The position numbers and the translations under genes are program-made. The notes below the pieces were generated by a model. That model saw nothing but the letters and a program-made list of their open reading frames with translations, made no database searches and had not been told where the DNA came from. Below, piece after piece: positions 3,411-24,848 of a DNA stretch of 64,000 bases; positions within the stretch are counted from its first letter, which is position 1, and each line of letters opens with the position of its first letter. This DNA is from Intrasporangiaceae bacterium URHB0013 (GTDB lineage: Bacteria; Actinomycetota; Actinomycetes; Actinomycetales; Dermatophilaceae): assembly GCA_000620545.1 (NCBI GenBank), contig JIBA01000018.1, forward strand, positions 124,001-188,000, in the 5' to 3' direction.

Positions 3411-4943
3411 TCAGCGCCCTGTGCCCCCACCGGAGGGTGCGGTCCCGGTGCCACCGTGCTGCCGTGCCCACCTCTCGATGCCTCGGGCATCGATGGGAAG
3501 GCCGTCGGAGAGCACCTCATGACCCTCGGCGGTGACGAGCAGGTCGTCCTCGAGGCGCACCCCGACGCCCCGCAGCTCCGGTGGCACGGTGAGGTCGTGG
3601 GCGTGGAAGTAGAGCCCGGGCTCGACGGTCATGACCATTCCCGGCTGCAACAAGGCGCCCATGTAGTCCTCGTACTCCGACGACAGGCAGTCATGGACGT
3701 CGAGGCCGAGGTGGTGACCGATACCGCACACGAGGTATCGGCGGTGCTGCTGCCCCGCGGGTGACAGGGCCTCGTCGACCGACACGTCGAGCAGGCCCCA
3801 GTCGTGCAGCCCCGTCGCCACGACCTCCATCGCCGCGAAGTGGAAGTCGGTGTACTGGATGCCGGGTCGCACCTGGGCCATGCCGGCCCGGTGGGCGCGT
3901 TCGACGAGGTCGTGGACCTCTCGCTGCTCGGGCGAGAAGGAGCCCGACGGGGGCACCGTCCGGGTCACGTCGGCCGTGTAGAGCGTCGTCGTCTCGACGC
4001 CCATGTCCAGCAGGAGGGGCAGGTCAGGCAACACGGGCCCGTCGCACCGTACCCAGTGCAGGGTCGGGGCGTGCGGACCCGACCCGACGATGGTCGAGTA
4101 GCCCGGCCCGTTCCCGTGGGTGCGGGCGTGCCGGTCGAACGTCCCCTGCAGCCAACGCTCCCCGAGCCCGTCGATGGCGGTGGGCACCTCGTGCATGACC
4201 GCCTCGAAGCCGCCGACGGTGGCGTCCACTGCGAGGCGCAGCTGCTCGACCTCCCACTCGTCCTTGATCATCCGCAGGTCCGACAGCGTCGCCGACAGGC
4301 GGCCCTCACGCACCAGGCCGTATGCCGCGACGTGGCGCTCGGCGACACTGGGGGTCGCCCACGCCCCGGAGCACTTCTCGAGTGCTCCGGCGAGAGCCTC
4401 GACGGGCTGCGCCTCGATCTGGAGCGCGAGGCCCCACTCGCGTACGCCGGGTGACGAGCCCACCCAGAGCTCGCCGTGGTCGGGGTCGCCGAAGAACGCC
4501 GTCTCGCCGGGTCGGGCCGGCGGGGGCAGGTAGAGCGTGGCGTGGTGGCCGTCGGCCGCGGGGCGGAGAACGAGCGTCGCACCTTCGGCCTGGCAGCCGG
4601 TCAGCCACACGAAGTCGCTGTCGGGGCGGAAGCCGTACGAGGCATCGCCGTTGCGGCGGGGGGCTCTCCCGGACGAGACGACGATCGTGCGCCCGGGCAG
4701 CCGCTCGACGAGGCGCCGCCGGTGGTCGGCGGCCGCCTCCGCCGTGCCGGCCGCCAGTGCCGGGCGCACGTCGTCCGCGGCCCAGCCCCGGGCAATCGTG
4801 CCGACGAATCCCTCTGCCTCGTGCAGGCGCGGCGGGCGCGTGCCTGCATGTGGCGGGCGGCCCGAGACCGTGTCGGCGGGCGTCTCGTCTCGGTGCCCTT
4901 CGGACTCCAGTGTCGTCTCGGTCCCACGCGTCAGCCGGCTCAT
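3411..4943 (-). CDS. Xaa-Pro aminopeptidase (peptidase M24B)
   Basis: A 510-residue aminopeptidase P: it removes the N-terminal residue of peptides whose second residue is proline, and in related enzymes hydroxyproline. The N-terminal creatinase-like domain covers about residues 55-215. The pita-bread M24 domain follows with all five metal ligands visible: D313 (LLLDMGVET), D325 (YTADVTRTV), H410 (GIGHHLGLDVHD), E441 (TVEPGLYF) and E465 (GVRLEDDLL). No signal peptide, so cytoplasmic. The ATG at 4943 has GGAGGAG just upstream and overlaps the stop of the preceding peptidase gene by four bases (ATGA), implying coupled translation. It is the last gene of the leftward operon with the peptide importer, fitting a role in cutting imported imino-acid peptides. 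Longer in-frame starts exist but would read back through the upstream gene. Confidence 0.93.
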   Translation of the reverse strand: MSRLTRGTETTLESEGHRDETPADTVSGRPPHAGTRPPRLHEAEGFVGTIARGWAADDVRPALAAGTAEAAADHRRRLVERLPGRTIVVSSGRAPRRNGDASYGFRPDSDFVWLTGCQAEGATLVLRPAADGHHATLYLPPPARPGETAFFGDPDHGELWVGSSPGVREWGLALQIEAQPVEALAGALEKCSGAWATPSVAERHVAAYGLVREGRLSATLSDLRMIKDEWEVEQLRLAVDATVGGFEAVMHEVPTAIDGLGERWLQGTFDRHARTHGNGPGYSTIVGSGPHAPTLHWVRCDGPVLPDLPLLLDMGVETTTLYTADVTRTVPPSGSFSPEQREVHDLVERAHRAGMAQVRPGIQYTDFHFAAMEVVATGLHDWGLLDVSVDEALSPAGQQHRRYLVCGIGHHLGLDVHDCLSSEYEDYMGALLQPGMVMTVEPGLYFHAHDLTVPPELRGVGVRLEDDLLVTAEGHEVLSDGLPIDARGIERWARQHGGTGTAPSGGGTGR

Positions 4944-6232: not shown

Positions 6233-6237
6233 ACGGC

Positions 6238-7137
6238 TCAGGCTCCTCTGCGGACGGACTCGGTGGCGTCGGCGGGCACGGGGTCCGGTGCCGCTGCGGC
6301 ACGCTCAGCGGCCCGCGCTCGTCGTCGAGCCTCCCACTCGGGGCGGATGCGTGGGACGGCGGCCAGGAGGGTCCGGGTGTACTCGTGGCGTGCGTCGCCG
6401 AAGACGCGGTCGCGCGGGCCCTCCTCGACGATGCGGCCGCCCGACATCACGGCCACGCGCGTCGCGATCTGGCGCACGACCGCGAGGTCGTGGGCGATGA
6501 AGAGGTAGCTGAAGCCCTCCTCGGCCTGCAGCTGCCGCAGCAGGTTGATGATCTGTGCCTGCACGGACACGTCCAGGGCCGACACCGCCTCGTCGCAGAC
6601 GACGAGCCGGGGGCCGACGGCGAGAGCGCGGGCGATGCCGATGCGCTGGGCCTGGCCTCCCGAGAACTGTGCCGGGTGCCGCTGCCACTGCTGGGGGTCC
6701 AGGCCCACGCGCTCCATGAGTGACTGCGTGAAGGCGCGCGACCCGCCCGGAGGCTTCCGCCCCTGGTACGTGAGGGGCGCCGTGACGATGCGTTCGACGG
6801 TGTGGCGTGGGTTGAGCGAGGAGAAGGGGTCCTGGAAGACGACCTGCACCTCGCTCCGGAACGCGTGCAGGTCACGTCCGGTCAGACCGGTGACATCCTG
6901 CCCGTCGAAGCGCACCGTCCCCAAGGTCGGGTCGATCAATCGCGCCACCAGCCGGGCGGTCGTCGACTTGCCGGAGCCGGACTCGCCGACGAGGGCGAGG
7001 GTCTCACCGGCCGCGACGGTGAGAGAGACGTCGTCGACGGCGCGGAACGTGTCGCCGCGCGAGAGCAGCCCTCCCGTACCCGAGACGGGGAACTCCTTGA
7101 CGAGGTGCTCGGCCTGCAGCAGCGGGGTCGCCGTCAT
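6238..7137 (-). CDS. Peptide ABC importer ATPase (OppF/DppF type)
   Basis: A 299-residue nucleotide-binding subunit of an oligopeptide/dipeptide importer. Motifs: Walker [10 protein letters not shown], signature [15 protein letters not shown], Walker [13 protein letters not shown] and the H-loop in [10 protein letters not shown]. The C-terminal extension containing [14 protein letters not shown] is the oligopeptide-transporter-specific tail. The ATG at 7137 overlaps the stop of the OppD-type gene by four bases (ATGA). An apparent longer frame upstream is read-through of that gene. It would energise uptake by the permeases encoded at 7994-9963. The downstream peptidase genes suggest the cargo is imino-acid-containing peptides. 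Confidence 0.94.
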
Positions 7138-7997
7138 GGACGGCCTCCTGTCGTGGTCAGGGATCGCAGGGCGCCGATCTCGTCGTCGATCCGGGGAACG
7201 GCGTCGAGCAGGGCCTGCGTGTACGGGTGCTTGGGATCGCTGAAGATGGACTCGACGGGCCCGCGCTCCACGCACTCACCCGCGCGCATGACGACGATGT
7301 GGTCGGTGATCTCGCTGACGACGGCGAGGTCATGCGTGATGAGGACGAGCGCCGTCCCGGTGTCACGCCGGATCTCCTGCAACAGCGCCAGGATCTGGGC
7401 CTGCACCGTGACGTCCAGCGCCGTGGTCGGCTCGTCGGCGATCAGCAGCTCGGGCTCGGTGGTGAGCGCCATGGCGATCATCACCCGCTGGCGCATGCCG
7501 CCCGAGAACTGGTGCGGGTAGTGGTCGATGCGGTGCGCGGCGTCCTTGATGTGGACACGCTCCATCGCCTCGACCGCCACTCGGTGCGCCTGGCGCCGCG
7601 TGACACCGCGGCGGTGCGAGCGGTAGGCCTCCTCGATCTGGGCGCCGACGGTGTAGTACGGGTTGAGCGATGAGAGGGGGTCCTGGAAGATCATCGCGAC
7701 GCGGTCCCCGCGGACCCGGCGCAGCCGGGACTCGGGCATCGCGGTGAGGTCTTCGCCGTCCAGCCGGACCGTGCCGCTGCGAGTCGCCTTGTCGGGCAGC
7801 AGCCCCATGATCGCGAGACTCGTCAGGGACTTGCCCGAGCCGGACTCGCCGACGATGCCCAGGGCGCCACCCGGCTCGAGGTCGAGGTCGAGGTGCGAGA
7901 CGACGTCGACGCGCCCCGTGGCCGTGGGAAAGGACACGGTGAGGTCCCGCACCTCGAGGAAGCCCGCCTGCGTGGGGTGCCTGTTCGTCGAGGTCAT
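7134..7997 (-). CDS. Peptide ABC importer ATPase (OppD/DppD type)
   Basis: A 287-residue nucleotide-binding subunit paired with the OppF-type ATPase. Motifs: Walker [12 protein letters not shown], signature [15 protein letters not shown], Walker [14 protein letters not shown]-loop LITHDLAVV, and the oligopeptide-specific tail [14 protein letters not shown]. The start at 7997 was chosen because its ATGA overlaps the stop of the OppB-type permease gene. The much longer open frame upstream runs antisense-like through the permease and is not coding. D- and F-type ATPases form the heterodimer that drives one transporter. No cysteines typical of the iron-sulfur-binding D subunits were noted. Confidence 0.94.
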
Positions 7998-8986
7998 GCC
8001 GCCACCCGCACCCTCGGGTCGATGACGGTGTAGACGACGTCGACGACGACGTTGCCGATGACGACGAAGAACGCAGCGAGGAGGGTGACGCCCATGATGA
8101 CCGGCTGGTCGTTCTTGGCGATGGAGTCCGCTGCCATCTTGCCCACGCCGTTGAGCCCGAACACGGTCTCGGTGATGAGGGCACCGCCGAGCAGGCCCGC
8201 GAAGTCCATCCCGAACACCGTGACCACCGGCGTCAGGGCGGGCCGGAGAGCGTGGCGGCGCCACACCAGGTGCGGGGCCAGACCCTTCGCGCGAGCGGTC
8301 CGCAGGAAGTTCTCCTGCAGGGTGTCGATGACGTTGGCTCGTGTCAGCCGCGTGTAGGCGGCGGCATAGCCGACGGCGAGCACGATCCACGGCATGACGA
8401 AGTTCAGGAACCACCGCCCGGGGTCCTCGCCGAAGGGGACGGCCTGCGGGAAGGGCAGCCACTGGAGCTGCACGACGAGCACGAACTGGAGCACGAGCGC
8501 GAGGACGTAGTTCGGGATGCTGAGGCCACCCAGGGTGAGGCCGGTCATGACGCGGTCGACCCAGGTGCCGTTCTTGACGGCGCCGATGAGGCCGGAGACG
8601 ACGCCGACGAGCAGCCACAGCACGGCCGCGCCGACCGCGACAGTCGCCGAGACCGGCAGTCGCTGCCAGATCATGTCGGTCACGGACTGGCTCGACTGGA
8701 AGGAGTAGCCCAGGCACGGCGCCGCACACTCGACCGCGTTGGCACCTTCGCCGTAGGTGCGCCCGGAGACGAGGCCACCGAGGAAGCTGAGGAACTGCGT
8801 CCAGAAGGGCCGGTCGAGGCCGAGGTTCATCCGGATCTGGTCGATGCGCTCCGGCGTGCAGCTCTTGCCGCACACCTGCACGGCGGGGTCGGGCGACAGG
8901 AGGAAGAACACGGCATACGTGAAGAGGCAGACGAGCAGCAGGACGCCGGCCATGCCGGCCAGCCTCCCCACGAGGTAACGGGGCAT
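7994..8986 (-). CDS. Peptide ABC importer permease (OppB/DppB type)
   Basis: A 330-residue inner-membrane permease of the OppB/DppB family, with about six membrane spans. It begins with the family-typical MPRYLVGRLAGMAGVLLLV and the early motif FLLSPDPAVQ. The periplasmic first loop contains two cysteines (VCGKSC) followed by the LGLDRPFWTQ segment. The EAA-like coupling loop reads LRTARAKGLAPHLVWRRHAL. The gene overlaps the DppC-type gene by one base (TGATG) and the OppD-type ATPase by four, so the whole importer is translationally linked. With the partner permease it forms the channel for peptides delivered by the lipoprotein encoded at 9971-11683. Confidence 0.93.
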   Translation of the reverse strand: MPRYLVGRLAGMAGVLLLVCLFTYAVFFLLSPDPAVQVCGKSCTPERIDQIRMNLGLDRPFWTQFLSFLGGLVSGRTYGEGANAVECAAPCLGYSFQSSQSVTDMIWQRLPVSATVAVGAAVLWLLVGVVSGLIGAVKNGTWVDRVMTGLTLGGLSIPNYVLALVLQFVLVVQLQWLPFPQAVPFGEDPGRWFLNFVMPWIVLAVGYAAAYTRLTRANVIDTLQENFLRTARAKGLAPHLVWRRHALRPALTPVVTVFGMDFAGLLGGALITETVFGLNGVGKMAADSIAKNDQPVIMGVTLLAAFFVVIGNVVVDVVYTVIDPRVRVAA

Positions 8987-9963
8987 CAGCGGGCCTCCCC
9001 GGAGTCGATGACGGTGCGCAACCGGTCACCCAGCACGGTGAACGACAGCACGAGCAGGAACAGGAACAGGCCGGGGATCGCGAAGTACGTCGGCACGACC
9101 GAGTACCAGCTCACCGAGCTGGCGATCATCTGGCCCCAGGAGGGCTCGGGCGGCACGACGCCGACACCGAGGAACGAGAGGCCTGCCTCGGTGCCGATGT
9201 AGCCCGGGACGGCGAGGGTGACCATGACGATGATCGTCGAGCGCAGGTTGGGCAGGATCTCGCGGAAGACGAGACCGAGGCCCGAGGCGCCGGATGCCCT
9301 TGCCGCCTCGACGAACTCGCGCCGACTGAGCGACATGGTCTGTCCTCGAACGATGCGCGCCAGGTAGGGCCAGCCGAAGACGGAGATGACGACGACGAGC
9401 AGGGACCCGCGGTTGCCGGCGGGCAGCGCCGACAGGACCGCGATCATGAAGATGAGCGCGGGGAAGGCCATGAGAAAGTCCATGACCCGTGAGATCGCGT
9501 GGTCGACCTTTCCGCTGAAGTAGCCGGAGAGCAGCCCGAACGTCACCCCCAGCGCCGTCGTGAGGGCCGTCGCCGCGAGGGCGATGGTCATCGACACGCG
9601 AACGCCGTAGACGATCCTGGCGAAGATGTCCCGGCCACTGCCCGGCTCGACTCCGAACCAGTGCGTGCTGCTGATGCCACCCCAGGGCCCGATGGGCACC
9701 CCGCCGAGGTTGGGGTCGATGGCCGTCTGGTCGAACTCGTACGGCGTCCAGCCGCTCACCATGACGATGAGGGGGGCGAAGACGGCCATGAGGACGATGA
9801 GGCCGATGTAGGTCGCCGACAGCACGGCGCCGACGTCACGGCTCAGCGCTCGCAGCAGACGCGGCCGCGAGGCCGCGGGGGGCGGCCCGACGGGTTGCGT
9901 CGGGCCGCCCGGCCCGCTGTCGGCCGAGAGCTCGACCTCCAGCTCGGTGGGGGCGATCGTCAT
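8986..9963 (-). CDS. Peptide ABC importer permease (OppC/DppC type)
   Basis: A 325-residue inner-membrane permease of the DppC/OppC family. The cytoplasmic N-terminal extension (about 45 residues, Pro/Gly-rich) precedes the first span. The characteristic WFGVEPGSGRDIFARIVYG segment and the coupling loop EFVEAARASGASGLGLVFRE are clear. Five to six spans follow, ending in LSFTVLGDRLRTVIDS, a typical C subunit end. It lies seven bases downstream of the substrate-binding lipoprotein gene and overlaps the OppB-type permease by one base. Gene order here (binding protein, C, B, D, F) is slightly unlike the common A-B-C-D-F order, with C before B. Confidence 0.93.
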   Translation of the reverse strand: MTIAPTELEVELSADSGPGGPTQPVGPPPAASRPRLLRALSRDVGAVLSATYIGLIVLMAVFAPLIVMVSGWTPYEFDQTAIDPNLGGVPIGPWGGISSTHWFGVEPGSGRDIFARIVYGVRVSMTIALAATALTTALGVTFGLLSGYFSGKVDHAISRVMDFLMAFPALIFMIAVLSALPAGNRGSLLVVVISVFGWPYLARIVRGQTMSLSRREFVEAARASGASGLGLVFREILPNLRSTIIVMVTLAVPGYIGTEAGLSFLGVGVVPPEPSWGQMIASSVSWYSVVPTYFAIPGLFLFLLVLSFTVLGDRLRTVIDSGEAR

Positions 9964-9970
9964 CGGTCGG

Positions 9971-11683
9971 TCACTTCTTCGCCGGGTCGCGCAGCCCGAC
10001 GAGGACGTAGTCGATGCCGCCCGTCGCCGCGCCCGGCGACGCGAAGAGCCCTGCGACGTTGCTGCCCGGCAGGTAGACGGCCTGCTCGACGTTGAGGGGA
10101 ACGATCGGCGCGAGCTTCAGGATCTCCTCGTCCAGGTCGCCCCACTGCTTGTTCGCCGCAGCGAGGTCGGTCATGGCGCCGATCTCGTCGATCCGCCTGT
10201 TGATGGTCGGGTCGTCGAGCTGGGCGAGGTTCGGGTTGCCCTTGTCGGTGATGTTGGCACCGTAGAACAGCGGCGGCAGGAACGTGGCGGCCGAGGACGC
10301 CCAGTCGGGGCACCAGCCGGTGATCGCAGCATCATGCTGCTGGGAGCGGGTCGCGATCGTCTCGTAGAACTTGGACGTGTCGATGACGTTGAGCTGGACG
10401 TCGACGCCGATGCGCTGCAGTGACTGCTGGATGGCCTCGGCCTGCTTCTGCATCTTCGGCTGCGACCGGATGTCCAGCACGAGGGGGAAGCCCGAAGACT
10501 GGCCGGCCTCCGCGAGGAGCTTCTTCGCCGTCGCGACATCGCCCGAGTGACCCTCACTCGGGTACAGGTCGAAGTCCTTGTGGCCGGCGACCGTGGTCGG
10601 GAGCACGGTCGTGGAGATCGTTGCCAGCTGGGTGCCGCCGGTGGCGTTCTGGACGGCTGCCTTGTCGATGGCATAGCTGATCGCCTGGCGCACCTTGACG
10701 TCGTCGAGCGGCTTCTTCGTCGTGTTGAGGGACATGTAGGTCGTGCAGACGCCGGACATCCGCAGCACCCGGTCCTTCAGCTGCGGGGTCTGGAGGCGAG
10801 GCAGCGTGGAAGCCTGGATGGTGCCGGCGATGGCGTTGGCGTCAGCGCCCTGCCCGGCCATGAGTCGTTCGTCGATGGTCGCGGCGTCCAGGCCCATGGT
10901 GAAGCGCCAGCCGTCGGGCTTCGCGGTGCGCACCTGGTCGGTCTTGGCGTCCCAGCTCGGGTTGCGCGTCAGCTCGATGAGACTGCCGGGCGTGTACGTC
11001 GCGAGCTTGTACGGTCCGGACGCGACGATCTTCTTGAGGAACGAGTCGCCGGCGCCCGTGCCCTTCGGGAAGGGAGTCATGTTGACCTGGGAGACGACCG
11101 CGTCGAATTCGGGGAAGGCCTTCTTGAGGTGGAAGACGATCGTGCTCGCGTCCGGGGTCTCGATGGTCGGCAGGTCGCCGGAGCGGTAGGGCCCGGCGTA
11201 TCCCTCCGGGGCGTCGATGACCTGCTTCGCGTAGGGGGAGCCGATACCGATCTGCGGGTCCCAGGCGCGGGAGATGCCGAACTTCACCTCGGCGGAGGTG
11301 ATCGGTGTGCCGTCCTCGAACTTCAGGCCCTCCTTGAGGGTGTAGGTCCACGTCTTGCCACCGTCGGACTGCTTGCCCAGGCCGGTGGCGAGGTCGGGGA
11401 CGATCGCGTTGGGGTCCGACGCGTTGCCGGGCGCGGACGTCGTCAGGGTGCGGTAGACGAGTCGGTAGAAGTTGTTGACGCCGCCGTCCCAGCCGCGAGC
11501 CGGGTCGAGGTACGAGAAGTCGGCGTTCTGGAGCACTTCGACCGTGCCGCCCGTGGCCGGCGTCGAGGTGAAGGAGGTGCTGGCGTTCGACGGCCCGCTC
11601 GGGGTGCCGCCACCGCCGCAGGCGCCGAGGGCGAAAGCGGTCGTCGCAGCGAGCGCCACGGTCGTGGTGAGGTGCCGTTTCAT
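9971..11683 (-). CDS. Peptide-binding lipoprotein (SBP family 5)
   Basis: A 570-residue extracellular solute-binding protein of the DppA/OppA family. It has a lipoprotein signal peptide ending in the lipobox LGAC with Cys22, followed by a Gly/Ser/Thr-rich linker, so it should be anchored to the outer face of the membrane. The family core is evident: DPARGWDGGVNNFYRLVYRT near the N-terminus, LKEGLKFEDGTPITSAEVKF and FHLKKAFPEF in the middle, and VRQAISYAIDKAAV later. It captures peptides and hands them to the permease pair. It starts 40 bases after the GH127 glycosidase gene, so glycosidase and importer are probably cotranscribed. A gene next to a beta-L-arabinofuranosidase and prolyl peptidases suggests affinity for (glyco)peptides containing hydroxyproline; ligand specificity is inference. 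Confidence 0.93.
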   Translation of the reverse strand: MKRHLTTTVALAATTAFALGACGGGGTPSGPSNASTSFTSTPATGGTVEVLQNADFSYLDPARGWDGGVNNFYRLVYRTLTTSAPGNASDPNAIVPDLATGLGKQSDGGKTWTYTLKEGLKFEDGTPITSAEVKFGISRAWDPQIGIGSPYAKQVIDAPEGYAGPYRSGDLPTIETPDASTIVFHLKKAFPEFDAVVSQVNMTPFPKGTGAGDSFLKKIVASGPYKLATYTPGSLIELTRNPSWDAKTDQVRTAKPDGWRFTMGLDAATIDERLMAGQGADANAIAGTIQASTLPRLQTPQLKDRVLRMSGVCTTYMSLNTTKKPLDDVKVRQAISYAIDKAAVQNATGGTQLATISTTVLPTTVAGHKDFDLYPSEGHSGDVATAKKLLAEAGQSSGFPLVLDIRSQPKMQKQAEAIQQSLQRIGVDVQLNVIDTSKFYETIATRSQQHDAAITGWCPDWASSAATFLPPLFYGANITDKGNPNLAQLDDPTINRRIDEIGAMTDLAAANKQWGDLDEEILKLAPIVPLNVEQAVYLPGSNVAGLFASPGAATGGIDYVLVGLRDPAKK

Positions 11684-13742: not shown

Positions 13743-13760
13743 GGGGATCTCCTCTGGTGC

Positions 13761-13783
13761 TACGTGATATTTCACTGGTCACG
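13761..13783. promoter_or_regulatory. GntR-type operator upstream of GH127/importer operon
   Basis: The palindrome GTGATATTTCAC (13764-13775) sits about 20 bases upstream of the preferred GH127 start. It lies in a 23-base stretch that matches 13964-13986, in front of the gntR gene, at 18 of 23 positions, including flanking TACGT and TCACG. Two copies flanking a divergent regulator gene, plus a third palindrome at 14783, suggest binding sites of the FCD-type GntR protein encoded at 14044-14724. Its position just ahead of the start codon would allow repression. Confidence 0.65.
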
Positions 13784-13842: not shown

Positions 13843-13856
13843 TGTTAGCGTTCACA
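13843..13856. promoter_or_regulatory. LacI-type operator (GH127 operon promoter)
   Basis: TGTTAGCGTTCACA resembles the palindromic consensus TGTTAGCGCTAACA bound by LacI-family sugar regulators in actinobacteria. A near copy (TGTTAACGCTCACA) lies at 21727-21740 before the exported glycosidase gene. Finding it only before the two glycosidase units suggests a sugar signal, probably arabinose, acting through a LacI protein encoded outside this window (inference). Confidence 0.6.
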
Positions 13857-14724: not shown

Positions 14725-14782
14725 GCACTGAGCACAGCAGCCCCACGGGTCGGCGCCGTCGACCCGATCGTCCGACGCACAC

Positions 14783-14794
14783 GTGATGGGTCAC
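14783..14794. promoter_or_regulatory. GntR-type operator before the hydroxyproline operon
   Basis: GTGATGGGTCAC repeats the GTRA-N4-TYAC palindrome seen at 13764 and 13967. It lies 38 bases upstream of the first hydroxyproline-catabolic gene, in the 107-base gap after gntR. The preceding ACAC and following GAGTC differ from the other two sites, so only the 12-base core is shared. Repression of the catabolic operon by the GntR protein is the likely role. Confidence 0.55.
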
Positions 14795-14831
14795 GAGTCA
14801 GAGCAAGGCAGACCAGCCGAGAGGAGCACCG

Positions 14832-16019: not shown

Positions 16020-16290
16020 TGACCGCGTGACCATCACCGTGGACGGTGTCCCCGTCGGCGGGCGGGCAGGCCAGTCGATCGCCGGTGTCCTGATCGGCGC
16101 GGGCGAGCAGGCTTGGCGCACCACGTCGTTCGCCAGTGCAGCCCGCGGGGTCTTCTGCGGCATCGGCGTGTGCTTCGACTGCGTGGTGGAGGTCAACGGC
16201 CTCGCCGACGTGCGGGCCTGCCTGCGCCGAGCGCGCGACGGTGACGTCGTCGTCCGTCAGCACATCGCACCGCCGGAGGTGATCCCATGA
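16009..16290 (+). CDS. D-hydroxyproline dehydrogenase, [2Fe-2S] subunit
   Basis: A 93-residue ferredoxin-like protein. The cluster cysteines are C50, C55 and C58 (GVFCGIGVCFDCVV) with C71 downstream (RACLRR), the pattern of the small subunit of HcnA/OoxA-type dehydrogenases. It should relay electrons between the two flavoprotein subunits. The GTG at 16009 follows GGAGAGG and lies inside the end of the DAO-type gene (11-base overlap); the stop overlaps the next ATG (ATGA). The overlap chain implies fixed stoichiometry of the three subunits. It is too short and too specialised to be a free-standing ferredoxin. Confidence 0.85.
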   Translation: MSRDDRVTITVDGVPVGGRAGQSIAGVLIGAGEQAWRTTSFASAARGVFCGIGVCFDCVVEVNGLADVRACLRRARDGDVVVRQHIAPPEVIP

Positions 16291-17732: not shown

Positions 17733-17753
17733 CCAGCCCGACCACCCACTCGT

Positions 17754-17825
17754 CACCGACCACCGTCTCGTCACTGACCACCCGCACAACACTGACCACC
17801 CGCACAACACCGACCACCAGCTCGG
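17754..17825 (+). repeat. 18-bp tandem repeat in hydroxyproline operon
   Basis: About four copies of an 18-base unit: two identical copies at 17772-17789 and 17790-17807 (CACTGACCACCCGCACAA), flanked by diverged copies at 17754 and 17808. It fills the gap between the dehydrogenase and deaminase genes. Read from an ATG at 17729 it would give a Thr/Ser-rich 51-residue peptide that ends at the deaminase GTG. This frame has no ribosome-binding signal of its own other than the ATGA overlap, so I treat it as spacer. Confidence 0.8.
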
Positions 17826-17880
17826 CACCGACCCCCAGCTCGGCCGCGAGCACGCAGCACCACCACCGAAAGGACATCCC

Positions 17881-18795
17881 GTGAGCAGCACCTTCGACCT
17901 CGGCGGCGTCGTCGTCGCGACGACCCTCCCCTTCAAGGAGGACCACTCCGCGCCCGCCGGGCTCGCCGTGGACTACGACCGCTACGCCGAGCACTGCAAC
18001 TTCCTCATCGAGAACGGCTGCCGTGGCGTCGGACCCAACGGGTCGCTCGGTGAGTACTCCTCGCTCACCGACGAGGAGCGGCGTCGGGTCGTCCAGGTCG
18101 CCGTCGAGGCCGTCGACGGGCGTGGCATCGTCGTCGCCGGCGTGCACGGCGTCGGGTGGCACCAGGCCCAGCACTGGGCGCGGCTCGCCGCCGAGGACGG
18201 CGCGGACGGGGTCCTGCTCCTGCCGCCCACGATCTACCGCGCGAACCGCTCGGAGGTCATCGAGCACTACGCCCGCGTCAATGAGGTCGGCCTGCCGATC
18301 ATGGCCTACAACAACCCCTTCGACACCAAGGTCGACCTGACCCCCGATCTCGTCGCCGAGCTGGCCGAGCTGGAGAACGTCGTCGCGATCAAGGAGTTCT
18401 CGGCCGACATCCGCCGCGTCCTCGAGATCAAGGAGGTCGCCGACATCGACGTCATCGCCGGCGCCGACGACCTGCTCTTCGAGTCCCTCGTCGCCGGGGC
18501 CGTCGGCTGGTTCGCCGGCTACCCGAACGCCTTCCCGAAGGAGGCCGTCGAGATCTACACCCTGGTCAAGGAGGGGAAGATCGCTGAGGCCCGGGAGCTC
18601 TACTCGCACCTCGTGGCCGTCTTCCGATGGGACTCGCGCACCGAGTTCGTCCAGGCCATCAAGCTCTCGATCGACATCGCCGGACAGAGCCACGGCGGCC
18701 GCACCCGACCGCCCCGTGGCCCGCTCAGTCCCGAGCACGAGGCACACGTCCGCAAGGACACCGAGAAGGCGCTCGCCTACCTCGCATCACGATGA
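17881..18795 (+). CDS. DapA-family pyrroline-4-hydroxy-2-carboxylate deaminase
   Basis: A 304-residue class I aldolase-fold protein of the dihydrodipicolinate synthase/N-acetylneuraminate lyase family. The Schiff-base lysine is K171 in NVVAIKEFSADIRR, and the proton-relay tyrosine is Y143 in MAYNNPFDTK; GPNGSLGEYSSLT is the family substrate-binding loop. Family members in hydroxyproline operons (LhpC/HypD type) deaminate and dehydrate pyrroline-4-hydroxy-2-carboxylate to alpha-ketoglutarate semialdehyde and ammonia. Context with epimerase, D-hydroxyproline dehydrogenase and semialdehyde dehydrogenase makes that function far likelier than lysine biosynthesis. Start GTG at 17881 after GAAAGGACA. 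Its stop overlaps the epimerase ATG by four bases. Confidence 0.9.
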   Translation: MSSTFDLGGVVVATTLPFKEDHSAPAGLAVDYDRYAEHCNFLIENGCRGVGPNGSLGEYSSLTDEERRRVVQVAVEAVDGRGIVVAGVHGVGWHQAQHWARLAAEDGADGVLLLPPTIYRANRSEVIEHYARVNEVGLPIMAYNNPFDTKVDLTPDLVAELAELENVVAIKEFSADIRRVLEIKEVADIDVIAGADDLLFESLVAGAVGWFAGYPNAFPKEAVEIYTLVKEGKIAEARELYSHLVAVFRWDSRTEFVQAIKLSIDIAGQSHGGRTRPPRGPLSPEHEAHVRKDTEKALAYLASR

Positions 18796-20027
18796 GCGGC
18801 ACGGGACAGCCGAGAGCCCGAGTCCGGCCGGGGCGCGGGGCGGCCGGAGCGGCCGCCGACAACGTGCCTCCGGGTACCGATGCGGCTGCCGCGGGCACCG
18901 AGGCGCCCGGGGCGGGCACCGCCACGCCCGCGGCGGGTGCCGACGCGCCCGGCTCCGGCACGGACGCGCCTGGCTCAGGTACGGACGTGCTCGATCCGGC
19001 CACCGCCGGGGCGCGGCTGCACACGCGGCCCGGCACGCGGTGGTTCACCGCCGTCGACTCGCACACCGAGGGGATGCCGACTCGGGTCGTCATCGACGGG
19101 ATCGGCACCATCCCGGGGGCGACGATGAACGACAAGCGACTCCACTTCATCGAGCACCTCGACGGCATCCGGCAGCTCCTCGTCAACGAGCCACGGGGGC
19201 ACGCCGCGATGAGCGGAGCGATCCTGCAGCCGTCCACACGCGAGGACTGCGACTGGGGCGTCGTCTACATCGAGGTGTCCGGCTGCCTGCCGATGTGCGG
19301 CCACGGAACGATCGGTGTCGCCACCGTCCTCGTCGAGACCGGCCTCGTCGACGTCGTCGAGCCCGTGACCACGATCCGCCTCGACACCCCCGCTGGGGTC
19401 GTGACGGCCTCGGTCGCCGTCGAGGACGGTCATGCCGTCTCGGTCGCGCTGGAGAACGTGCCGAGCTTCGTCGTGAGGCTCGATGCCACGGTCGACGTGG
19501 CCGGACTCGGGACCGTGCCCTACAGCCTCGCGTTCGGCGGCAACTTCTACGCGATGGTCGACCTCGACGACGTCGGGCTGCCTTTCGACCGCGCCCACCA
19601 GGACGACATCCTGGCTGCCGGGCTCGCGATCATGGACGCCATCAACACGAGCGCGCCGCCGCACCATCCGACGATCGACGGTGTGGACCACTGCCACCAC
19701 GTGGAGTTCATCGCGCCCGGCTCCGACGCCGTCCTGTCACGTCACGCCATGGCCATCCATCCGGGGTGGTTCGACCGGTCTCCTTGTGGCACAGGCACCT
19801 CCGCTCGCATGGCCGAGCTCTGGGCACGTCATGAGCTGCCGCTGCACACCGACTTCGTCAACGAGTCGTTCATCGGCAGCCGCTTCGTGGGCCGCCTCGT
19901 CGCGGAGACGGTCGTGGACGGCACGCCCGCCGTCGTGCCGACGATCACCGGCCGGGCCTGGGTCACCGGCACCGGTCGCTACCTTCTCGACCCCACCGAC
20001 CCCTTCCCCACCGGCTTCGCGTTCTGA
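18792..20027 (+). CDS. 4-hydroxyproline 2-epimerase (proline racemase family)
   Basis: A 411-residue member of the proline racemase family, longer than the usual 310-345 residues because of an Ala/Gly/Pro/Thr-rich extension of about 75 residues. Both catalytic cysteines are present: C169 in PMCGHGTIGVA and C332 in RSPCGTGTSARMA. The enzyme is therefore a two-base racemase/epimerase rather than the Thr-containing trans-3-hydroxyproline dehydratase. It interconverts trans-4-hydroxy-L-proline and cis-4-hydroxy-D-proline, the first step of the pathway. The family core begins near WFTAVDSHTEGMPTRVV (residue 84). The ATG at 18792 overlaps the previous stop (ATGA), so the extension is probably translated. 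Within it, 21-base units (18945-18986) encode APGSGTD twice. Proline racemase activity is the main alternative but is disfavoured by context. Confidence 0.92.
   Translation: MSGTGQPRARVRPGRGAAGAAADNVPPGTDAAAAGTEAPGAGTATPAAGADAPGSGTDAPGSGTDVLDPATAGARLHTRPGTRWFTAVDSHTEGMPTRVVIDGIGTIPGATMNDKRLHFIEHLDGIRQLLVNEPRGHAAMSGAILQPSTREDCDWGVVYIEVSGCLPMCGHGTIGVATVLVETGLVDVVEPVTTIRLDTPAGVVTASVAVEDGHAVSVALENVPSFVVRLDATVDVAGLGTVPYSLAFGGNFYAMVDLDDVGLPFDRAHQDDILAAGLAIMDAINTSAPPHHPTIDGVDHCHHVEFIAPGSDAVLSRHAMAIHPGWFDRSPCGTGTSARMAELWARHELPLHTDFVNESFIGSRFVGRLVAETVVDGTPAVVPTITGRAWVTGTGRYLLDPTDPFPTGFAF
18945..18986 (+). repeat. 21-bp tandem duplication in epimerase 5' region
   Basis: Two adjacent 21-base units (18945-18965 and 18966-18986) that differ at three positions and keep frame, encoding APGSGTD repeated, inside a longer Ala/Gly-rich stretch. 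It extends the epimerase N-terminus without touching its catalytic core. It is one of three in-frame short repeats at successive gene junctions in this operon. Confidence 0.75.
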
Positions 20028-20061
20028 ACGTCGCGGCCGCCGATCGCAACCCGAGGAAACC

Positions 20062-21651
20062 ATGAGCTCCCCAACCAGCAGCCCGCCGACCACCACCGGC
20101 AACCGGGCCGCCGACCCCGGCGTCCCGGCACCGGTTCGAGCCCACACCAACGACGACACCAACGACGACACCAGCGCCGACACCAGCGCCCTCGATGCTG
20201 TCATCGCCCGGGCGGAGCGCGCCTTCGACACCCTCGCCCTGCTCGAACCCGCCATCGTCGCAGCCGCCCTCGACGCCGCGGCCGAGGCTCTCGGCGCACA
20301 CACCGACGAGCTCGTCGAGCTGGCGGTGGGCGAGACGGGACTGACGACACCTCGGCTCACCGGGGAGCTGCGCCGCACGCGCGTGCAGCTGCGGCTCTTC
20401 GCCCGGACCGTCGAGCGCGGTGACCACCTCGACGTCCGGATCGATGCTGCCGACGCCGGCTTCGCCCTCGGGGTGCCGCGGGACGACCTGCGCCGGCTCC
20501 TGGTACCGGTGGGCCCCGTCGTCGTGTTCGCGGCGAGCAACTTCCCCTTTGCCTTCTCCGTCGCCGGAGGTGACACGGCCTCGGCCCTGGCGGCCGGGTG
20601 CCCCGTCATCGTGAAGGCGCACCCGGGCCACCCCGAGCTCTCCCGTCGGGTGGCCGACGTGGTCGCGTCCGCCCTGGTCGAGGCGGGCCTGCCGGAGGGC
20701 ACTCTTCAGCTCGTCGAAGGACAGGACACCGGCGTGGCCGCCCTGCGCCACCCCCGCGTGCGCGCCGCATCCTTCACGGGGTCCCTGCGCGCCGGCCGGA
20801 TCCTCGCCGACCTCGCGGCGTCCCGACCCGACCCGATCCCGTTCTTCGGAGAGCTCGGCAGCGTCAACCCCGTCGTGGTCACGGCGGCAGGGCTCGAGGC
20901 GACACGACCGGAGCTCGCCCAGGGCTTCGTCGCCAGCGTCAGCGGTTCGGCCGGCCAGCTCTGCACGAAGCCGGGCTTTCTCCTCGTCCCGGAGGGAGCG
21001 GGTCTCGGCCCGGCGGTGGCGACCGCGGCGGCCTCGGTGCCCGAGCACCGCCTGTTGAATGCCGGCATCGCCGACGGCTACGAAGCCCGTCGTGACGCAG
21101 TCCTCGGCACGGTCGGCGTCCGCATCATCCACGCGGGTGGGCTGCGTCGCGATGCGGACGGCCACGGGTGGGCGACCCCCACGATCGTCGAGGTGGGGCT
21201 CGAGACGCTGCGCGACCACCGGGACACGCTCCTCGACGAGGCCTTCGGCCCGTTGTCCGTCATCGTCGACTACCCCGTGGGCACGGATCTCGCGGCCACC
21301 CTCGCCGACCTCTTCCCGGGCAACCTCACGAGCACGCTCCATGCCGGGCCTGACGAGACCGGGCCCGACGTCGAGCGCCTCGTGCGCACCATGGCCCGCA
21401 CGAGCGGCCGGGTGCTCCTGCGCGGTTGGCCGACCGGGGTGGCCGTGACCCCCGCCATGCAGCACGGCGGCCCCTGGCCGGCGACGACGAGCGATGCAAC
21501 GTCCGTGGGCACCGCGGCCATCGCGCGGTTCCTGCGGGGTGTCGCCTTCCAGGGCGCACGTGACGACCTGCTGCCTCCAGCGGCCCGTGACGCGAATCCG
21601 TGGGGCGTCGGCCGATCGGTATGCGCCGCAGGCGAGTCCACCGCCTGGTGA
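20062..21651 (+). CDS. Alpha-ketoglutarate semialdehyde dehydrogenase
   Basis: A 529-residue NAD(P)-dependent aldehyde dehydrogenase of the 2,5-dioxovalerate dehydrogenase type, the last step of hydroxyproline breakdown, yielding alpha-ketoglutarate. The general-base glutamate lies in FFGELGSVNPVVV and the nucleophile cysteine in SGSAGQLCTKPGFLLVP, both matching this subfamily; the cofactor-binding region includes FAASNFPFAFSVAGGDTAS. The ATG at 20062 follows CCGAGGAAA, 34 bases after the epimerase stop. The first 45 residues are low-complexity (Ser/Thr/Pro then Asn-Asp-Asp-Thr repeats) and lie outside the enzyme fold. Last gene of the rightward catabolic operon. Confidence 0.9.
   Translation: MSSPTSSPPTTTGNRAADPGVPAPVRAHTNDDTNDDTSADTSALDAVIARAERAFDTLALLEPAIVAAALDAAAEALGAHTDELVELAVGETGLTTPRLTGELRRTRVQLRLFARTVERGDHLDVRIDAADAGFALGVPRDDLRRLLVPVGPVVVFAASNFPFAFSVAGGDTASALAAGCPVIVKAHPGHPELSRRVADVVASALVEAGLPEGTLQLVEGQDTGVAALRHPRVRAASFTGSLRAGRILADLAASRPDPIPFFGELGSVNPVVVTAAGLEATRPELAQGFVASVSGSAGQLCTKPGFLLVPEGAGLGPAVATAAASVPEHRLLNAGIADGYEARRDAVLGTVGVRIIHAGGLRRDADGHGWATPTIVEVGLETLRDHRDTLLDEAFGPLSVIVDYPVGTDLAATLADLFPGNLTSTLHAGPDETGPDVERLVRTMARTSGRVLLRGWPTGVAVTPAMQHGGPWPATTSDATSVGTAAIARFLRGVAFQGARDDLLPPAARDANPWGVGRSVCAAGESTAW
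20144..20191 (+). repeat. 12-bp tandem repeat in dehydrogenase 5' region
   Basis: Four 12-base units: ACACCAACGACG twice (20144, 20156), then ACACCAGCGCCG and ACACCAGCGCCC (20168, 20180). In frame they give Asn/Asp/Thr/Ser repeats in the N-terminal tail of the semialdehyde dehydrogenase, ahead of the conserved domain. Confidence 0.8.
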
Positions 21652-21701
21652 CCGCTGGGCGGGGCGGTGGCCGCCACGCTGGACAGGATGTCCCCGACCC
21701 G

Positions 21702-21740
21702 TTGACCCGCTCGGTGATATGTCATATGTTAACGCTCACA
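21702..21740 (+). promoter_or_regulatory. Promoter of exported glycosidase with two candidate operators
   Basis: TTGACC (21702-21707) and TATGTT (21725-21730) with an exact 17-base spacer form a convincing sigma-70-type promoter. The spacer contains GTGATATGTCAT (21714-21725), one mismatch from the GntR-type palindrome seen at 13764. TGTTAACGCTCACA (21727-21740), a LacI-type operator like the one at 13843, overlaps the -10 region and likely start site. The layout suggests dual repression by the local GntR protein and a LacI-type sugar regulator. Confidence 0.65.
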
Positions 21741-21750
21741 CGGTGAGTGC

Positions 21751-21986: not shown

Positions 21987-24848
21987 ATGACCAGCAACAC
22001 CTTCTCCCGCAGGCAGCTGCTTCAGCTCGGCGCGGTCTCGGCCGGCACCCTGGCGGTCGGCATGACCACCACCAGCCCCGCCCACGGCGCCACCACCAGC
22101 ATCACCCCGGCCGCGCTCGGCTCCGTGGCCACGTCGCCACCCGGTCGGGTCAACGGCCTCCCGGTGCCCCGCTCCTGGAAGGCCGTGCCCTTCGACCTCA
22201 CGCAGGTCGAGCTGGCGCCGAGCATCTTCACCGAGAAGCGTGACCGGATGCTCGCCTACGCGCGGGCCTACCCGGTCGACCGGATCCTCAGCAACTTCCG
22301 GGCCACTGCAGGGCTCGACACGTTCGGTGCCCAACCCCCGGGTGGCTGGGACGACGCCACCGGCAACTTGCGCGGACACTACAGCGGGCACCTCATGTCG
22401 ATGCTCGCCCAGGCGTGGGCGGGCACAGGCGAGCAGGTGTTCAAGGACAAGCTCGACGCCGTGGTGGCCGGCCTCAAGGAATGCCAGGACGCCCTGGCTG
22501 CTCAGGTCGGTCGTCCGGGTACGCCACCCCCGCCGGCCACGTGGGGCGGCGGCCGCTTCGGTGGTGGCCTCGTGCTGACCGGGGACGGCCAGTACGTCGG
22601 CCTGCCCGATGCGACGATCGACGGTCTGACCGACTTCACGATCGCCGTGTGGGTCAACCTGCGCGAACGCCGCACCTGGCCGCGCGTCTTCGACTTCGGC
22701 ACGGGCACGCGCGCCAACATGTTCCTCACCGTCGACACCGGCTCGGGGCCGCGCTTCGCGATCACGACCACGGGCGCCGCCGGAGAGCAACGCATCGCCG
22801 GCACCGTGCGGCTCCCCACGGACCGATGGGTACACCTGGCCGTGTCCCTGCGGGGCCAGACGGGCACGCTCTACGTCGACGGCGCCGTCGCGGGCACCAA
22901 TGCCGCCATGACGCTCAGGCCCGCGGACCTCGGGGCGCCGAAGAACAACTGGATCGGTCGCTCGCAGTACGGCGACGCGACCCTCGCGGGCACCATCGAC
23001 GAGTTCCACCTCTTCGACCGTGCCCTCGACGCCGCCGAGGTTGCCGACCTCACGACATCGGCCGCAGGCAAGGCGCACGGGAACCTCGCGTGGTACCGCT
23101 TCGACGCGAGCTCGGGCACGGCTGTCCACGACGACTCCGGCCGGTCCTGGGACGCCGCCGTGGTCACCGGTGAGGGCGGCGACCCGGGGCCGAGCCACGC
23201 AGGCTTCCTCGCGGCCTACCCCGAGACCCAGTTCATCAAGCTCGAGGAGTACGTCACCTACCCGGCCATCTGGGCGCCGTACTACACGTGTCACAAGATC
23301 ATGCGCGGCCTGCTCGACGCGTACGCGCTCACCGGCAACGAGACGGCACTGCAGGTCGTACGCGACATGGGCGAGTGGGTGCACAGCCGCCTCAGCCGAC
23401 TCCCCCGCGAGCAGCTCGACCGGATGTGGGGGCTCTACATCGCCGGCGAGTACGGCGGCATGAACGAGGTGATGGCAGACCTGTACTCCCTCACCGGGGA
23501 GGCCATCTTCCTGGAGTCGGCACGGTACTTCGACAACACGCGCCTGCTCGCGGACTGCGTGGCCGACAAGGACACCTTGGACGGCAAGCACGCCAACCAG
23601 CACATCCCCCAGTTCATCGGCTACCTCCGGGTCTTCGAGCAGGGCGGTGACCCCTCCTACCGGGCCGCCACGGAACACTTCTTCGACATGGTCGTGCCCC
23701 ACCGGCTGTACGCCCACGGCGGCACCGGACAGGGCGAGGTCTTCCGCGCCCGCGACTCGATCGCGGGCACCATCGTCAACACCACCAATGCCGAGTCGTG
23801 CGCTGCCTACAACATGCTCAAGGTCGCCCGGAACCTCTTCCTCCACGGCCCGGACGCCCGGTACATGGAGTTCTACGAGAAGGCGCTCGTCAACCAGATC
23901 CTCGCGTCGCGCCGGGACGCCGACAGCACGACCGACCCCCTCGTCAACTACATGGTGCCCGTGGGGCCCGGCGCCACCCGTGGCTACGGCAACACCGGAA
24001 CCTGTTGCGGCGGAACGGGACTGGAGAACCACACCAAGTACCAGGACTCGATCTACTTCCGGTCGGCACAGGGGCGGATCCTGTGGGTGAACCTGTACGT
24101 CCCGTCGACCCTCGACTGGGCAGACCAGGGGATCGCGATCACGCAGTCCGGCGACTACCCCCGCGAGCAGCAGAGCACGTTCACGTTCTCGGGCTCCGCG
24201 GTGGTCGACCTGCGCCTGCGTGTGCCCGAGTGGGCCGGTGACCGCTTCACGGTCACGGTCAACGGTCACGAGCAGCCGGTTCGTCAGGGGTCGGACGGCT
24301 ATGCGCGCCTCAACCGTCGGTGGCGCGAGGGCGACACGATCGTCGTGTCGTTCCCCTACTCCATGCGAGTGGAGAGGGCGATCGACGACCCGGACGTGCA
24401 GGCGCTGCTGTACGGACCCGTTGCGCTCATCGGCAAGTCCTCGAGCACCGAGTGGTTGCCGGTCACCCTGTCCGATCAGCTGCCGTTGTCGGGCAGGCTC
24501 GACTCCGTCGTGCGGCCCGCGGGACAGCCGATGACCTTCGAGACCAACGGGATCCGCTTCGAGCCGTTCTACCTCGGCAACCCGGAGCCCTACCACGCCT
24601 ACGTGCGTCGCACCGAGACCACCATCGTCTTCGCCGGTCTGGACACCGGTGTGCCCAACCGTGCCGACGAGGCCGGGACACGGTTCCTCGACGCCCTGTG
24701 GTCGCGGGCCCCGTTCAAGAACGCCACCGCGTTCGAGCGTGGGGTTGCAGCGACCACCGACACCTGGGTCGCGGCGGGACTCCTCTCGCGTGCCGAGGCC
24801 ACCACGGTCGCGCGGACGGCGCGCGACGCACCGATTCAGGGGCTCTGA
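21987..24848 (+). CDS. Tat-exported GH127/GH146-like glycosidase with inserted LamG domain
   Basis: A 953-residue secreted enzyme. The N-terminus has a Tat motif (SRRQLLQLG, residues 7-15), a hydrophobic stretch and a likely cleavage site after AHG (residue 34). A DUF1680-type catalytic domain starts near residue 65, is interrupted at about 185-365 by a concanavalin-like LamG domain (LTDFTIAVWVNLRERRTW, WVHLAVSLRG, LYVDGAVAG, IDEFHLFDRALDAAEV), then resumes with WAPYYTCHKIMRGLLDAYAL. Active-site candidates are E603 and C605 (TNAESCAAYNM) and C673-C674 (GTCCGGTGLENH), the zinc-cysteine pattern of GH127 and GH146. It probably removes beta-L-arabinofuranose from extracellular plant glycans or glycoproteins, with the LamG insert as a carbohydrate or surface binder. 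ATG at 21987 after GAAGGAGA. Exact family and linkage specificity remain open. Confidence 0.88.
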   Translation: MTSNTFSRRQLLQLGAVSAGTLAVGMTTTSPAHGATTSITPAALGSVATSPPGRVNGLPVPRSWKAVPFDLTQVELAPSIFTEKRDRMLAYARAYPVDRILSNFRATAGLDTFGAQPPGGWDDATGNLRGHYSGHLMSMLAQAWAGTGEQVFKDKLDAVVAGLKECQDALAAQVGRPGTPPPPATWGGGRFGGGLVLTGDGQYVGLPDATIDGLTDFTIAVWVNLRERRTWPRVFDFGTGTRANMFLTVDTGSGPRFAITTTGAAGEQRIAGTVRLPTDRWVHLAVSLRGQTGTLYVDGAVAGTNAAMTLRPADLGAPKNNWIGRSQYGDATLAGTIDEFHLFDRALDAAEVADLTTSAAGKAHGNLAWYRFDASSGTAVHDDSGRSWDAAVVTGEGGDPGPSHAGFLAAYPETQFIKLEEYVTYPAIWAPYYTCHKIMRGLLDAYALTGNETALQVVRDMGEWVHSRLSRLPREQLDRMWGLYIAGEYGGMNEVMADLYSLTGEAIFLESARYFDNTRLLADCVADKDTLDGKHANQHIPQFIGYLRVFEQGGDPSYRAATEHFFDMVVPHRLYAHGGTGQGEVFRARDSIAGTIVNTTNAESCAAYNMLKVARNLFLHGPDARYMEFYEKALVNQILASRRDADSTTDPLVNYMVPVGPGATRGYGNTGTCCGGTGLENHTKYQDSIYFRSAQGRILWVNLYVPSTLDWADQGIAITQSGDYPREQQSTFTFSGSAVVDLRLRVPEWAGDRFTVTVNGHEQPVRQGSDGYARLNRRWREGDTIVVSFPYSMRVERAIDDPDVQALLYGPVALIGKSSSTEWLPVTLSDQLPLSGRLDSVVRPAGQPMTFETNGIRFEPFYLGNPEPYHAYVRRTETTIVFAGLDTGVPNRADEAGTRFLDALWSRAPFKNATAFERGVAATTDTWVAAGLLSRAEATTVARTARDAPIQGL

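Follow-up and report, generated by a model that had tools for sequence, protein, structure and literature searches.

The locus at positions 3411-24848 of the window, by which we mean the whole 64,000-nt stretch of soil actinobacterial DNA analyzed here, places two glycosidase genes beside genes for peptide uptake, prolyl peptidases and hydroxyproline (Hyp) degradation, and raises the question of which substrate these functions would share. A sequence-only reading had proposed a single system that strips arabinose from Hyp-rich glycopeptides, imports them and catabolizes them completely. We consider it probable that the locus serves the catabolism of Hyp peptides bearing beta-L-arabinofuranose, such as occur in plant extensins. 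The choice of extensin in particular we only infer, because other arabinosylated Hyp peptides fit as well.

Gene Content and Organization of the Locus

The genes are arranged around a 0.3-kb divergent promoter. Leftward from it lie GH127, DppA, C, B, D, F, S33 and M24, and rightward GntR/FCD, DAO, Fer2, FAD/BFD, DHDPS, Hyp epimerase and aldehyde dehydrogenase, the last of which is separated from the Tat-type gene by a 0.3-kb gap. The features are as follows.

3411-4943, minus strand: M24 Xaa-Pro aminopeptidase, aminopeptidase P type (PF00557 1.8e-44, PF05195 1.2e-17)
4940-6232, minus strand: S33 prolyl-aminopeptidase-like alpha/beta hydrolase (PF00561 1.3e-11)
6238-7137, minus strand: DppF-type ATPase (ABC_tran and oligo_HPY)
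7134-7997, minus strand: DppD-type ATPase (ABC_tran and oligo_HPY)
7994-8986, minus strand: DppB-type permease (PF00528, PF19300)
8986-9963, minus strand: DppC-type permease (PF00528, PF12911)
9971-11683, minus strand: DppA-type binding lipoprotein (SBP_bac_5 2e-74; lipobox visible in the sequence)
11724-13742, minus strand: GH127 glycosidase without signal peptide (PF07944 4.5e-83)
13764-13775: HypR-like operator (GTRNNATNNYAC type), upstream of GH127
13843-13856: LacI/AraR-type operator in the GH127-GntR divergent promoter
13967-13978: second HypR-like operator, on the GntR side of the promoter
14044-14724, plus strand: GntR/FCD regulator, HypR-like (PF00392, PF07729; setting likened to that of HypR in PMC6608401)
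14832-16019, plus strand: FAD subunit (DAO) of D-hydroxyproline dehydrogenase (PF01266 2.2e-69)
16021-16287, plus strand: 2Fe-2S subunit (Fer2_4) of Hyp dehydrogenase (PF13510 3.4e-22)
16287-17732, plus strand: FAD/NAD subunit of Hyp dehydrogenase with a BFD-like domain (PF07992 8.6e-29)
17881-18795, plus strand: DHDPS-type deaminase (PF00701 5.4e-50)
18792-20027, plus strand: 4-hydroxyproline epimerase (Pro_racemase; PF05544 5.2e-118)
20062-21651, plus strand: aldehyde dehydrogenase, probable alpha-ketoglutaric semialdehyde dehydrogenase (PF00171 3.9e-38)
21727-21740: LacI/AraR-type operator, upstream of the Tat glycosidase gene
21987-24848, plus strand: Tat-type exported GH146-like glycosidase, its catalytic domain interrupted by a LamG domain (PF07944 and PF13385)

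The full peptide ABC importer claimed in the sequence-only reading is indeed present: the Dpp/Opp-type system is complete, with five subunits including a family-5 binding lipoprotein (DppF, D, B, C and A, 6238-11683, minus strand). The top solved match of DppA is 2wok, oligopeptide binding protein 2 (E 3.4e-85), and the importer is predicted to carry peptides, here glycopeptides. Both claimed prolyl-type peptidases were likewise recovered, namely the aminopeptidase P-type M24 protein, matched best by 4pv4, proline aminopeptidase P II (E 2.6e-48), and the S33 prolyl-aminopeptidase-like protein, matched best by 8jgn (chain name AT3g61540, E 8.1e-96). One operon is likely, because 4-nt overlaps join DppF to DppD, DppD to DppB, and M24 to S33; S33 follows dppF by 6 nt.

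All genes of the claimed trans-4-hydroxyproline to alpha-ketoglutarate pathway, with its own GntR regulator, are found at 14044-21651 on the plus strand, and by comparison with Table 2 of PMC6608401 the Hyp module of the HypR-controlled type is complete (epimerase, three-subunit dehydrogenase, deaminase and GntR/FCD regulator). The epimerase shows both active-site cysteines (MCGHG, SPCGTG) and scores 326.7 bits against PRK13971, below the cut-off of 376. The BFD-like domain of the FAD/NAD subunit (PF04324, 2.2e-05) falls slightly below its cut-off, and the aldehyde dehydrogenase has no NCBIfam family at cut-off among the 25 shown. A tRNA-Thr called at 23742 was rejected as a false prediction, having no Rfam match and lying inside the Tat glycosidase gene.

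Two Glycosidases of the PF07944 Family

Only two PF07944 proteins were found in the genome, the GH127 enzyme and the Tat protein. The first, claimed as a cytoplasmic DUF1680-type glycosidase, lies at 11724-13742 (minus strand) and lacks a signal peptide, as do, by eye, the 17 members of its clade that were inspected (clade A, below). It comprises a catalytic PF07944, a middle and a C-terminal domain (4.5e-83, 3.6e-14 and 1.8e-20, respectively). Its residues E340, E356, C358, C436 and C437 map to E322, E338, C340, C417 and C418 of HypBA1, and these catalytic and zinc residues are invariant in the 17 clade sequences; we predict that E340 is the acid/base and that E356, C358, C436 and C437 form a zinc site with a cysteine nucleophile. 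The exact HypBA1 active-site spacing proposed earlier holds for E340, E356 and C358 but not for the Cys pair, the step to which is 78 residues in the window enzyme versus 77 in HypBA1 (78 in 16 of 17 measured clade members, 77 in one). The AlphaFold model (pLDDT 79.6) matches 4qjy with TM 0.79/0.83 and E 6e-40, and the nearest folds are Ara127N, BT3674 and HypBA1, titled beta-(L-)arabinofuranosidases. The GH127 enzyme thus probably removes beta-L-arabinofuranose by a zinc-cysteine mechanism. In the tree, clade A is separate from all three solved GH127 enzymes included, BT_1003 not being among them, and the exact linkage cut therefore stays a prediction.

The second glycosidase is, as had been described, a Tat-exported PF07944 protein, with the twin-arginine signal SRRQLL visible in its sequence; it is, however, GH146-like rather than HypBA1-like, since its best solved match is 5opj (E 5e-77) and HypBA1 (3wkw) reaches only 1.4e-08. 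The 5opj-identical entries 6yqh and 8qf8 carry GH146 in their titles. The zinc and cysteine residues correspond to an ESC at 603-605 and a Cys pair at 673-674. Among the GH127-clade genomes, this exported enzyme was seen only in the window and in Terrabacter MAHUQ-38.

Conservation of GH127 Beside the Importer

Relatives of GH127 (E <= 1e-30) are common, being present in 155 of the 396 genomes searched at order level and in 20 of 396 at phylum level. The clade of the window enzyme, clade A (49-77% identity), is rare. Seventeen of its genomes came from GH127 searches (the window, Terrabacter MAHUQ-38, Humibacillus, Krasilnikoviella, two Isoptericola, four Nonomuraea, Streptomyces sparsogenes, Arthrobacter, Leucobacter and four further relatives) and two from a DppA-seeded search (L170 and L171). 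The 19 rows form one clade with 100/100 support against 50 other GH127 rows, for part of which the neighborhood was read. The Dpp importer adjoins GH127 in 19/19 clade A genomes versus 0/21 other GH127 loci (L023, L027-L029 and L084-L100, with less than 0.5 kb remaining downstream of GH127 in L027), and both the importer set and the epimerase are absent from all 21 of these controls. The arrangement is accordingly neither unique nor unconserved, a point on which the sequence-only reading had called for a neighborhood check. It is not a product of chance, because genomes of other genera of actinobacteria show this gene order again; the flanking genes tested in Nonomuraea, Isoptericola and Krasilnikoviella are unrelated. 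A lone weak ATPase match was seen in two control loci.

The linkage was also recovered from the importer side. With DppA as the seed, seven matches were obtained in 394 class genomes, and all six at E <= 1e-200 (two new, four already known) have GH127 beside DppA; the seventh lies on a 5.4-kb contig, too short for a neighboring GH127.

The remaining genes are more variably placed. S33 follows the importer on the same contig in 15/19 clade A genomes; an S33-M24 pair (73% and 68% identical) opens another contig in Leucobacter, DppF-M24 without S33 lies on another contig of S. sparsogenes (L112), M24 is present and S33 missing in G1110, and neither gene was seen at the Arthrobacter locus. In 14/19 genomes, genes of the Hyp pathway share a contig with GH127 and are no more than 20 kb away from it, a count that includes Isoptericola QY 916 (L013) by its dehydrogenase subunits and GntR at the contig start, L171 by DHDPS only, and Humibacillus with its Hyp genes 16-19 kb away. 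They occur in three layouts, either divergent from GntR, downstream of M24 or the importer, or downstream after GntR. In G408, G941 and G1110 the stretches read contain no Hyp genes, and in Leucobacter and S. sparsogenes the contigs end. At the genome level, a Hyp epimerase (E <= 1e-140) was found in 15/15 clade genomes searched, in addition to the loci of the window and G175, compared with 18/149 order genomes at E <= 1e-120; as a counter-case, G944 has a Hyp epimerase and a GH127 that falls outside clade A.

Predicted Regulation by HypR-Like and Arabinose-Type Operators

Palindromes of the GTRNNATNNYAC type precede GH127 at 15/17 loci and in L170 and L171 (17/19), the two promoters without a HypR-type site being those of Humibacillus and Leucobacter. 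The first 17 promoters hold 23 such sites in 5.3 kb, versus 0.18 expected in first-order random sequence, and no site of this type was found in 232 control upstream regions. The pattern had been picked by eye on these 17 promoters, and the independent tests are therefore the control regions, the fresh cases L170 and L171 (2/2) and the literature. In Streptomyces coelicolor, HypR, a repressor of the Hyp operon from the GntR/FadR family, protects TACAATGTCAC from DNase I and shifts TGCAATGTCAC-bearing fragments (PMC6608401). We learnt of these operators only after the GTRNNATNNYAC pattern had been chosen.

Exact copies of TGCAATGTCAC occur ahead of GH127 in Arthrobacter and of DHDPS in three Nonomuraea, and before GH127 the motif recurs with one mismatch in four Nonomuraea and L171 and with two in S. 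sparsogenes; the window promoter carries a diverged form of the HypR operator, GTGAAATATCAC. The pattern GTGCAATGNYAC has 16 matches in six genomes, 13 of them at the locus (9 in GH127 promoters, 4 before DHDPS-epimerase) and 3 elsewhere, as assigned by hand, and its reversed form gives 10. This pattern resembles the HypR sites tested in S. coelicolor, and its copies here would be bound by the HypR-like regulator. A single palindrome, TGTTACCNGTAACA, was tried as the GntR site everywhere and rejected, being exact only in Leucobacter and present with one mismatch in Isoptericola L014.

A second motif, TGTKARCGYTMACA, was first spotted by eye. The 4.57-Mb genome contains it exactly four times without mismatch: in the GH127 promoter (13843), in that of the Tat gene (21727), 95 nt upstream of the gene that opens an arabinose operon (sugar-binding protein, ATPase, permeases, LacI, kinase, aldolase, arabinose isomerase), and ahead of one further glycosidase with a signal-like start. 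The reversed pattern has no match in 17 genomes. We propose that a LacI-type arabinose regulator acts on the GH127 promoter site. Terrabacter MAHUQ-38 has the motif ahead of a GH43 gene, too, and of a transporter operon whose last gene encodes an alpha-L-arabinofuranosidase. In MAHUQ-38, the nearest relative, the region upstream of the Tat gene has no arabinose-type site with up to four mismatches allowed. No HypR-like site was found in the promoter of the window's own Tat gene.

An arabinose-type site stands ahead of GH127 in only 5/19 clade A genomes, as TGTKARCGYTMACA in the window, MAHUQ-38, Humibacillus and Arthrobacter and as another palindrome, TGTTACCGGTAACA, common to the GH127 and araD upstream regions, in Leucobacter; it is missing in the other 14 promoters. 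Three Nonomuraea genomes hold 11-13 exact TGTKARCGYTMACA sites each, none of them at GH127. Arabinose genes themselves enter the locus in some relatives: Humibacillus (L118) has LacI, FGGY kinase, class II aldolase and arabinose isomerase genes between M24 and the Hyp genes, and Arthrobacter (L018/L107) has arabinose isomerase and a homologue of FGGY kinase upstream of GH127. AraA_N has one match in 16/17 clade genomes and none in that of S. sparsogenes. The joint regulon suggested for both substrate halves is supported by the HypR-type and arabinose-regulator-like sites in one GH127 promoter.

One Leucobacter contig (L162/L167) starts with the order S33-M24-GH36 alpha-galactosidase-GH146 type-LacI-araD-araB-araA-aldose epimerase-galT-galK, and in L171 a GH36 gene is convergent with DHDPS. 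In the Ser-Hyp4 units of extensin, serine bears alpha-galactose and Hyp bears arabinofuranose (PMC5371791), and these gene sets therefore match the extensin glycan. We keep GH36 as support for an extensin substrate, not as proof, because the 21 control GH127 loci include one with a GH36 gene nearby and another with a weak match (L093, L087).

Alternative Substrates

The locus might instead scavenge bare Hyp peptides from collagen or non-glycosylated plant protein, with GH127 as a passenger acting on unrelated plant glycans, a reading we regard as unlikely. It would agree with the control of a putative collagenase by S. coelicolor HypR (PMC6608401). Relatives of S33 are common: an S33-seeded search of 396 order genomes gave 132 matches at E <= 1e-80, from which 18 loci were fetched. 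Twelve have no Dpp-type permease next to S33, and in L143 Dpp permeases stand with S33 and M24 where a contig begins. L150 combines S33, M24 and Hyp genes with less closely related Dpp genes in a cluster where no PF07944 relative was found, which speaks for the bare-peptide reading. The other four (L134, L138, L139 and L141) encode a close DppA (54-68%), DppA-F, S33, M24 and Hyp genes with no adjoining GH127, and all four have in its place a signal-less GH146-type enzyme after M24, overlapping the M24 stop by 4 nt in two of them; the family was assigned from one member, that of L138, whose best match is 5opj. A route for bare peptides can thus occur by itself, and it is the arabinosidase that distinguishes this importer clade. 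Against a passenger role also speak the presence of GH127 beside DppA in every strong DppA-seeded match and, in some genomes, the arabinose-type operators and arabinose genes at the locus. Collagen Hyp, moreover, is not known to bear arabinose.

Sugar binding does occur among SBP_bac_5 proteins, and the importer could in principle carry beta-arabino-oligosaccharides for GH127 to cut inside, with the peptidases serving the Hyp side only. Such a division of labor resembles that of Bifidobacterium longum, where BauABC is the presumed importer and the intracellular GH127 enzyme HypBA1 cuts imported beta-arabinobiose (PMC7263609). We hold it to be quite improbable here, given that DppA is nearest to an oligopeptide binder (2wok), that the prolyl peptidase genes stand so close behind the importer, and that no GH121 arabinobiosidase is among the proteins of the locus. 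That GH127 acts on another sugar, such as the aceric acid of rhamnogalacturonan II, is very improbable: its sole NCBIfam match is indeed the aceric acid hydrolase NF049879, but at 346.6 bits versus a cut-off of 950, the enzyme named aceric acid hydrolase, BT_1003 (5mqo; PMC10850190), ranks narrowly below the other GH127 entries in the fold search, and the arabinose-type operators, with arabinose genes in two relatives, point to arabinose.

Comparison with Known Systems

The HypBA1/HypBA2/BauABC system of B. longum likewise has an intracellular GH127 enzyme, Hyp-rich glycoproteins as the source and LacI-type control of its GH127 gene (BauR), and GH146 paralogues of the bifidobacterial system are described (PMC7263609, PMC5928203, PMC10850190). 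There, however, GH121 cuts the disaccharide outside the cell and a sugar importer takes up the sugar, not the peptide (PMC7263609, PMC5928203), whereas the window locus encodes a peptide importer, prolyl peptidases and Hyp catabolism and has neither GH121 nor a sugar importer of the HypBA/Bau type among its proteins. Xanthomonas euvesicatoria, with XeHypAA, XeHypBA2 and XeHypBA1, shares a beta-L-arabinofuranosidase acting on Araf-Hyp and has a predicted prolyl oligopeptidase gene, frameshifted according to the paper, adjoining xehypAA; its three enzymes differ in having signal peptides, and the account in PMC6085000 describes neither a peptide importer nor a Hyp pathway.

On the imino acid side, the SCO6289-6295 HypR regulon of S. 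coelicolor has the same Hyp pathway genes and a GntR/FadR regulator but includes a putative collagenase, and the main text of that report contains no "arabin", "glycosid" or "DUF1680" (PMC6608401). A neighborhood study of the proline racemase superfamily linked 4-Hyp epimerase to DAAO, DHDPS, aldehyde dehydrogenase and transport systems, and in its main text "DUF1680", "glycos", "peptide" and "arabin" are all absent (PMC4113996). An in silico reconstruction of Latescibacteria predicted extensin use by GH127 with general peptide uptake, though the account given describes neither a gene cluster nor a link between GH127 and a Hyp pathway (PMC4454575). The papers considered here treat either the sugar half (Bifidobacterium, Xanthomonas) or the bare imino acid (Pseudomonas, Streptomyces), and the present locus joins both. 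The sequence-only reading had recognized the parts separately and not the assembly; full-text searches of the open-access PMC library brought up no paper that, judged by title, abstract and passages, joins GH127/GH146, a peptide importer and Hyp catabolism.

Proposed Route of Glycopeptide Catabolism

For the catabolism of arabinosylated Hyp peptides, we suggest the following route. Outside the cell, the glycoprotein would be trimmed by proteases, joined in this genus by the Tat-exported GH146-like enzyme, and short glycopeptides would be bound by DppA and enter via DppBCDF. In the cytoplasm, GH127, with its conserved residues, would remove beta-L-arabinofuranose by the zinc-cysteine mechanism, after which the S33 and M24 peptidases, whose families suggest cleavage at proline, would dismantle the peptide at Pro/Hyp. 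The released Hyp would be epimerized, oxidized, deaminated and oxidized to alpha-ketoglutarate by the products of the rightward genes, and L-arabinose would pass to an AraBAD set, whose genes lie elsewhere in this genome but within the locus in two relatives. Two regulators would each attend to one half of the substrate, a HypR-type GntR protein to hydroxyproline and a LacI-type protein to arabinose, through the sites described above.

Because the conserved glycosidase is cytoplasmic, import should come before sugar removal. Its gene heads the likely operon that also encodes the peptide-type importer, and the simplest order would be glycopeptide import, arabinose removal, prolyl peptidases and Hyp oxidation. 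The earlier scheme of stripping, import and catabolism therefore stands as to its parts, which are joined and conserved, but not as to their order, import presumably preceding most sugar removal. The locus accordingly predicts an order of events other than that of the known systems and a class of substrates new to Dpp-type importers, and it offers candidate enzymes for Araf-Hyp chemistry.

A wider model, to which we give somewhat less than an even chance, would have this importer take up intact arabinosylated Hyp peptides, alpha-galactosylated as well in some relatives, with cytoplasmic deglycosylation by interchangeable GH127 and GH146 enzymes and two regulators each sensing one half, and would extend its range to CLE-type hormones, so that plant signals would be removed from the root zone. 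Arabinosylated CLE-type plant hormones do exist (PMC8012813), and their uptake by the importer is offered here as speculation.

LamG insertion and gene calls within the locus

In the Tat-exported glycosidase encoded at 21987-24848 (+), the GH146-type catalytic domain is interrupted by a LamG domain (residues 199-353), which is likewise placed within the catalytic domain of its counterpart from Terrabacter MAHUQ-38. The cytoplasmic GH146-type enzymes from four relatives' loci (L134, L138, L139 and L141) are without this insertion. Inside the Tat glycosidase gene, ARAGORN called a tRNA-Thr at 23742-23822 (-), which is probably false because no tRNA match was found there in Rfam. The hydroxyproline epimerase carries a long, repetitive N-terminal extension of the GTDAPGSG type (18792-19040) ahead of its conserved start, and its true start codon may lie downstream of the called one (18792).

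Other arabinose-type operators

The fourth arabinose-type operator of the same genome belongs to the following gene:

L163:9394-11883 (C9), a glycosidase gene whose product has a signal-like start and contains an MGH1-like domain

Another such operator was observed in Terrabacter MAHUQ-38 (L165, near 9815), where the closest gene call is some 0.8 kb away; no sugar genes were recognised around it.

Genes flanking the locus

The glutaminase A gene immediately following the locus (25121-26146) is outside its conserved gene set. The region at 895-3344 holds two divergent genes, one for a ferredoxin-reductase-like protein and the other for a PucR-type regulator, and homologues of both (56% and 53%) occur together in L099, near a GH127 that falls outside the clade.
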